Part shown: positions 36,332 to 37,587 of the stretch, piece by piece
How positions within the stretch are numbered: the stretch's first letter is position 1
How the letters are laid out: every line of letters starts with the position of its first letter
From: Acidobacteriota bacterium
GTDB taxonomy: Bacteria > Acidobacteriota > Blastocatellia > Pyrinomonadales > Pyrinomonadaceae
DNA length: 48,622 nt
NCBI GenBank assembly: GCA_003222945.1
Contig: QHXM01000068.1
Span: 1-48,622, forward strand
Reading direction: 5' to 3'
Made by a program: the position numbers and the translations under genes
Notes under the pieces: generated by a model
Database searches by the model: none
Told to the model about the DNA's origin: nothing
Seen by the model: only the letters and a program-made list of their open reading frames with translations

Positions 36332-37351
36332 ATGCTGTTTCAGAAAAAGATTCGCGCTTTAGTTGTAATAATCTTTCTTTCAGCTATCTCATCACCAGCC
36401 TTCGCTCAGAGTAAACAGGAAGAAGATGATTCAAAACTAACGGGCACTCCCGTGCTATGGAAAGCGCCCGTCGATCTTCCGGCGCGCGACCTCTTTCTTG
36501 GTCCGGGAGGCGAGGAGATGAGGCCGGACTTAAGCCGCATTACTTTCGAGAGCGATGAAACAGGCGGCTACTCCGTTAAGTGGAACGTGAAGGATGGCTC
36601 TGGCAGGAAGTGGGTTGCGAAGCTCGGAAAAGAGTCTCAAGCCGAGACCGCAGCCGTCAGACTCCTTTGGGCCGTAGGCTACATGACTGAAGTCAATTAC
36701 CTTGTGCCGTGCCTTCACGTCGAAGGCGCACCCAAACCTCGCAAGAAGGTTCAGAGATGTGAGGGCGATGGCTTCGCAAACGTGCGATTGAAGTCCAGGC
36801 CGAAGGAGTTTAAGAAGGCGGGCAACTGGAGTTGGAAACAGAACCCGTTTGTGGGGACGAAAGAGTTTCAGGGACTTGTAGTAATGATGGCTCTTTTGAA
36901 CAACTGGGATTTGAAGGAAGAGAACAACAAAATCTTCTACGTGCCTTCGGGCGAAAATGGTGAGGGCGAGTTGCAGTACATGGTCACGGACCTCGGCGCT
37001 AGCTTCGGCCAAGTGAAGGTCAACGCGCCCATACTCTGGCGAATCTTGCGCAATCGAAACGACCCGAAGGATTACAGCAGGGACCCCTTCATTGACAGCG
37101 TGAAGCGCGGGCGAGTCTTCTTCTCTTACACGGGAAAGCAGGACGAGCTATTCGACGACATAAAGGTGGGAGACGCACGCTGGATCGCAAGTCTTCTATC
37201 GAAACTGAGCGACAGGCAGATCGGGGATGCCTTCCGCGCCGCCAACTACGCGCCCGAAGAGGTAAGGCTTCTGACAGATAGCGTTCGTTCCCGCATTAAC
37301 GAACTTGCTGAGATACGAACTGATGGACCGTTGGCTAAAGGAGAGAAGTGA
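36332..37351 (+). CDS. Exported protein with atypical kinase-like motif order (CotH/FAM20/HipA-like fold suspected)
   Basis: 339 residues with GAGG before ATG 36332. A signal peptide ends at AFAQ (residue 26). No named family is recognised with certainty. The order of motifs fits a protein-kinase-like fold: a basic strand GRKWVAKLG (Lys97), a helix with Glu105 in QAETAAVRLLWAVGY, then LLNNWDLKEENNKIFYV (Asp193, Asn198/199), then MVTDLGASFG (Asp220). This recalls the N-D-N and D-x-D/DFG elements of CotH, HipA and FAM20-type kinases. Cys127 and Cys143 may form a disulphide. If active, it would be an extracytoplasmic kinase or nucleotidyl-transferase (inference). Confidence 0.75.
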   Translation: MLFQKKIRALVVIIFLSAISSPAFAQSKQEEDDSKLTGTPVLWKAPVDLPARDLFLGPGGEEMRPDLSRITFESDETGGYSVKWNVKDGSGRKWVAKLGKESQAETAAVRLLWAVGYMTEVNYLVPCLHVEGAPKPRKKVQRCEGDGFANVRLKSRPKEFKKAGNWSWKQNPFVGTKEFQGLVVMMALLNNWDLKEENNKIFYVPSGENGEGELQYMVTDLGASFGQVKVNAPILWRILRNRNDPKDYSRDPFIDSVKRGRVFFSYTGKQDELFDDIKVGDARWIASLLSKLSDRQIGDAFRAANYAPEEVRLLTDSVRSRINELAEIRTDGPLAKGEK

Positions 37352-37407
37352 TGGCTGTTAAAAAGCTATCAGGCAAAGAGCAGAGAAATTACATAATGAG
37401 CAGGTCC

Positions 37408-37442
37408 CGGAAGTAGGGAAAGGAGATTTCCTTACGCTTCCG
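37408..37442. terminator. Two-tier hairpin between convergent genes
   Basis: CGGAAG (37408-37413) pairs with CTTCCG (37437-37442), and inside it AAGGA (37420-37424) pairs with TCCTT (37429-37433). It lies 57 bases after the exported kinase-like gene. Confidence 0.45.
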
Positions 37443-37587
37443 ACCGATTAAAAGTGTAGATCGTTGAAAACAAGTAACCGAGAGCAGAGGCCAACGACAT
37501 TGGTTCAACTATATGATTGCGCGCTCGTAGGACGTTGACGGATATTTTCAAACAAAATTATCCAAATAGTTTTCTTACTCCCGACAC

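Follow-up and report, generated by a model that had tools for sequence, protein, structure and literature searches.

Several described kinases resemble the protein considered here. The HipA-type kinases (Pfam HipA_2, PF20613, and HipA_C, PF07804) have a kinase-like fold with a lysine strand, an Asp-x4-Asn motif and a D-x-G motif. The CotH kinases (PF08757) are extracytoplasmic or coat kinases, in Acidobacteriota and Gram-positive bacteria frequently encoded beside a polyphosphate polymerase and a DUF4956 protein, FAM20 (Fam20C) comprises secreted atypical kinases of eukaryotes, and CtkA of Helicobacter pylori (PDB 3AKJ, 3AKK and 3AKL) is the best solved structural match, at 11-13% identity. 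Our subject is a gene at 36332..37351 (+ strand) of a 48,622-nucleotide contig (QHXM01000068.1; C200 in our numbering) from a soil bacterium of the Pyrinomonadaceae (Acidobacteriota), and this whole contig is referred to as the window. With a probability of roughly 0.75, we propose that the product of this gene is an atypical HipA-like kinase, exported and with its catalytic residues intact, which belongs to an undescribed family and works outside the cytoplasmic membrane. Unlike HipA_2 and HipA_C, the window family is predicted to be exported, falls below the Pfam cut-offs and has no visible HipB partner, and unlike the HipA toxin-antitoxin pair it sits with ppk1 (polyphosphate kinase), DUF4956 and a phosphatase gene, or alone. 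It also has no detectable sequence similarity to CtkA, which comes from an unrelated setting and organism, and no sequence match to FAM20. CotH is another sequence family, accompanied by the polymerase VTC where the window family has PPK1.

Predicted fold and catalytic residues

The open reading frame (ORF) was confirmed, with an ATG start, a TGA stop and 339 codons (a product of 339 amino acids). An AlphaFold2 model built on 89 homologues had a mean predicted local distance difference test (pLDDT) value of 93.1 and a predicted template modelling (pTM) score of 0.91. The order of elements in this model is kinase-like, running from beta1, beta2 and beta3 (with the lysine) and alphaC (with the glutamate) through further strands, a hinge, alphaE, the catalytic loop, two strands and the DLG motif to the helices of the C-lobe. 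When the model was compared with the PDB using Foldseek, all seven matches at E<=1e-3 were kinases. CtkA came first (six chains, best E 6e-5, probability 1.00) and Rio2 next (E 3e-4), while Fam20C and PI4KIIa matched at about 4e-3. Many kinases were also found among the matches to a viral structure library. On the strength of this model a protein-kinase fold is almost certain.

The residues expected at the active site were highly conserved among 126 distinct homologues. Lys97 (codon 36620..36622, + strand like all the features given here), Glu101, Asp193, Asp220 and Gly222 were invariant, and position 105 (codon 36644..36646) was always acidic, with Glu in 123 sequences and Asp in three. Position 198 was Asn in 112 and Gln in 11, Asn199 was conserved in 120 and differed in six, and Lys83, in the Gly-loop region of beta1-beta2 (ETGGYSVK, 36557..36580), was conserved in 116. 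When the superfamily was aligned, with about 20% identity between its members, Gly79, Asp193, Asp220 and Gly222 were invariant and Lys97 and Glu105 nearly so. Glu101 was not retained in these more distant relatives, and Glu105 is therefore the better candidate for the alphaC glutamate. In the model Lys97 lies in the strand 93-98 and Glu105 in the helix 101-114. The catalytic loop DLKEENN (36908..36928) contains Asp193, Asn198 and Asn199, with the first two at the spacing found in HipA sequences, and DLG (Asp220-Leu-Gly222, 36989..36997) corresponds to the D-x-G metal-binding motif, conserved in both the family and the superfamily. This pattern of motifs is not due to chance, and the order of the elements together with the fold match suggests that Lys97, Glu105, Asp193 and Asp220 may converge in one pocket.

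Judged by eye, the N-terminus (MLFQKKIRALVVIIFLSAISSPAFA|QS) is a classical signal peptide with an AxA site, covering residues 1-25 (36332..36406) with cleavage at AFA/QS, and a hydrophobic N-terminal stretch was present in 118 of 125 homologues. A preliminary description of this gene had recognized the signal peptide followed by WVAKLG (Lys97), Glu105, NNWDLKEENN (Asp193, Asn198/199) and VTDLGASFG (Asp220), and had read them as the catalytic layout of atypical kinases. All these motifs lie as numbered there, and the residues fall in beta3 (Lys), alphaC (Glu), the catalytic loop and the D-x-G motif. The structure prediction and search that it had proposed as a check returned a kinase fold, with CtkA, Rio2, Fam20C and PI4K among the matches. 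A lack of conservation, which it had named among the findings that would speak against it, was not seen, the four residues being conserved across the 126 homologues.

Two gene fusions concern the location of these proteins. A kinase-family domain and an Omp85 outer-membrane barrel are encoded in a single ORF (L185:2230-4692), and a related kinase-like domain is fused to a PAP2 membrane phosphatase, giving a kinase-phosphatase fusion (L182:1779-4004); the two fusions support an extracytoplasmic site. A second, larger exported kinase-like family (L175:1506-3245 and similar ORFs of 515-835 amino acids) is common in Acidobacteriota, and no Pfam model covers it above the cut-off.

Relationship to described kinase families

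No Pfam or NCBIfam model matched the window protein, including HipA_2 and HipA_C, for which there was no match above the cut-off, and when the PDB was searched by sequence, nothing rose above noise and no chain was matched, whether the query was the window protein, the family or the superfamily profile. The family profile reached two further groups, an exported and Cys-richer one of about 390 amino acids and an exported one of about 580 amino acids with the motifs NHDDSRAQN and DFGSTFG. In profile-profile comparisons with hhalign, whose E-values are pairwise and not database-calibrated, the window family matched the ~580-residue group at 98.9% probability (2e-17). This group in turn matched HipA_2 at 87% (4e-6), the unrelated controls giving 0.1 or worse with the same group. 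One of its members also matched Pfam HipA_2 by hmmscan at 9e-4, below the Pfam cut-off. These profiles point to homology with the HipA-like kinases, through intermediates only. Direct homology to HipA_C was considered and rejected, since none appeared by profile comparison. As for a HipB-type antitoxin, no recurrent small DNA-binding neighbour was recognized among the ORFs of 80 amino acids or more in 79 loci.

For CotH, the window protein did not match the Pfam model, and the 50 best Foldseek matches included no CotH structure. An hhalign match with the two Asp motifs in register was dropped as a sign of direct homology, because its E-value (0.011) was no better than that of an unrelated control (0.009), and CotH membership is therefore not claimed. 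Fam20C gave no Pfam match to the window protein and a weak fold match. HipA, CotH and FAM20 had all been offered as models in the preliminary description; the first holds at the sequence level via the intermediates, and the other two do not, being fold- or motif-level parallels. The accompanying statement that extracytoplasmic kinases are rare in Gram-negative bacteria was too strong, as six of the 60 Acidobacteriota genomes sampled were found to have CotH itself. Its suggestion of a new family was borne out, neither Pfam nor NCBIfam covering this one.

Homologues were present in half of 60 related genomes and in 16 of 149 sampled across the phylum, while a profile search matched 61 of 297 genomes when distant or partial matches were counted; several paralogues per genome are common. 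Nearly all of the best 80 matches in a scan of genome contigs were assigned to Acidobacteriota lineages, two loci coming from one record labelled just 'bacterium', and among these matches the family was seen in Acidobacteriota only. It was not found on the plasmids or in the viral contigs searched, no PADLOC defence model matched, and a literature search on exported HipA-like kinases yielded nothing relevant. The family is undescribed and unnamed and new to the libraries searched; it belongs to a fold class that is already known and is not a new kind of system.

Gene neighbourhood across the family

Among the 79 homologue loci, ppk1 lay directly upstream on the same strand in 28, and the kinase gene was followed by a DUF4956 membrane protein in 25 and by an ATP-binding cassette (ABC) exporter in seven. 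A convergent gene for an exported CX5R phosphatase was found near the kinase gene in 26 loci, with the motif HCxxGxxR[TS]G in 24 of 27 phosphatases examined. Of the 28 ppk1 loci, 26 had DUF4956 or the ABC exporter downstream and 19 had the exported phosphatase. When 69 members were placed in a tree, those with the ppk1 setting were scattered over deep branches on the Pyrinomonadaceae-rich side, and the Terriglobia/Bryobacterales branch had PLD-like, metallophosphatase and ABC neighbours in place of ppk1. Stand-alone homologues were common in the same tree (20 rows). The arrangement ppk1 - kinase - DUF4956 (or ABC exporter) is the ancestral-looking setting of the family. In one branch, an exported protein with no family assigned (L057:7120-7806) is repeatedly encoded next to the kinase and a metallophosphatase.

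A similar arrangement is found around CotH. Of seven loci with acidobacterial CotH genes, three (L138, L140 and L144) had VTC and DUF4956 alongside, with VTC assigned by Pfam in each and DUF4956 by Pfam or similarity, and in a fourth (L142) the CotH gene adjoins DUF4956. For Gram-positive bacteria, a published survey reports cotH, a poly-phosphate polymerase and DUF4956 grouped beside Pel operons (PMC7112168). This CotH-type setting, frequent but not defining, is found in the window family with ppk1 for VTC, although not at the window locus. Polymerase, DUF4956 and exported kinase therefore recur together with different polymerase and kinase families, and two kinase lineages have a common polyphosphate/DUF4956 setting. 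Whether this setting reflects a functional link of the window family to polyphosphate we consider an even call.

The genome containing the window (4.74 Mb in 325 contigs, about 90% complete) has three copies of the kinase gene, in the window and on contigs C259 and C45. Only one ppk1 was detected in this genome; it is on C45, and after it come a kinase paralogue that is longer by about 60 residues, an ABC exporter and a convergent exported phosphatase (L137:5784-11733). The window copy is alone on the + strand between two genes on the - strand, which by eye are a short PAS-type ORF on the upstream side and a radical-SAM-type gene on the downstream side. Its stop codon is overlapped by what is left of a DUF347 membrane-protein gene (37351..37461, +), which keeps the first ~74 bp and the last ~50 bp and lacks the middle ~700 bp; in blastn the two parts are 88% identical to the corresponding ends of the intact DUF347 gene that follows the C259 paralogue (L136:9254-10057). 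The paralogue in the window stands alone, its following membrane-protein gene having been lost, and a polyphosphate link would therefore be a property of the family and not of the window locus.

Proposed activity and alternatives

Taking the conserved residues and the model together, the protein is probably an active phosphotransferase. The kinase would be exported by the Sec pathway and would then pass phosphate to an envelope or secreted target, with Lys97 and Glu105 holding the phosphates of the nucleotide, Asp193 acting as the catalytic base, and Asn198/199 and Asp220 binding the metal. In the operon versions, the convergent exported CX5R phosphatase could plausibly reverse the mark.

Several observations weigh against this proposal. 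The direct profile match between the window family and HipA_2 was at noise level (0.027), so that the link depends on the intermediates. Template modelling scores against solved kinases were modest (0.25-0.52), which makes the protein a divergent member of the kinase fold, and a prediction from the single sequence without alignment gave a useless model that was not used. Furthermore, the window copy is without the ppk1 operon, and we know of no supply of adenosine triphosphate (ATP) in the periplasm.

The alternative that survives best, which we regard as a genuine though lesser possibility, is that the exported enzyme has the kinase fold but differs in its chemistry or target, being for instance a kinase of small molecules, lipids or glycans, or catalysing a reaction other than phosphotransfer. 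The substrate is not set by the fold alone, PI4KIIa and Rio2 scoring in Foldseek like protein kinases, and other kinase-fold families show non-phosphotransfer activity such as AMPylation. The neighbouring DUF4956, ABC and PLD-like genes would suit work on an envelope polymer or lipid equally as well as protein phosphorylation. The convergent exported phosphatase of the 26 loci, which is of the tyrosine/dual-specificity type, suits a protein mark better, although relatives of such phosphatases act on inositol phosphates too.

A pseudokinase, in which the binding fold is kept and catalysis gone, is unlikely. The lack of known ATP at an extracytoplasmic site and the substitutions at Asn198 and Asn199 would agree with it, but pseudokinase families normally lose some catalytic residues, and here Lys97, Asp193, Asp220 and Gly222 are invariant and position 105 always acidic. 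That the paralogue in the window is decaying and no longer has a role appears very unlikely: its position outside the ppk1 operon and the deletion remnant overlapping its stop codon would fit decay, but the reading frame is intact, all catalytic residues and the signal peptide are kept, and stand-alone homologues are common. Least probable is a diverged CotH family member with a CotH-like action, for which the parallel settings and the register of the two Asp motifs speak, and against which stand the missing Pfam match, the control-level profile E-value and the Foldseek result.

Returning to the exported HipA-like kinase, the sets of ppk1 (or VTC), DUF4956 and exported kinase might all represent one kind of machine. 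Cytoplasmic polyphosphate would be exported via DUF4956 or the ABC exporter and either used by the kinase as donor or attached to a target, and the phosphatase would remove the mark. This is speculation, and we consider it improbable; if true, polyphosphate as donor would solve how a compartment lacking ATP carries out phosphorylation.

Significance

To our knowledge, little is understood about phosphorylation beyond the inner membrane of bacteria, in part for want of any known source of ATP in that location. The predicted exported HipA-like kinases, a large and unnamed family found repeatedly behind ppk1, provide a concrete and testable system. The operon context raises the interest of this family and hints at phosphorylation outside the cell membrane. 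Together with the CotH-VTC-DUF4956 sets, it means that two kinase lineages lead to the same unexplained link of polyphosphate, DUF4956 and what may be exported phosphorylation.
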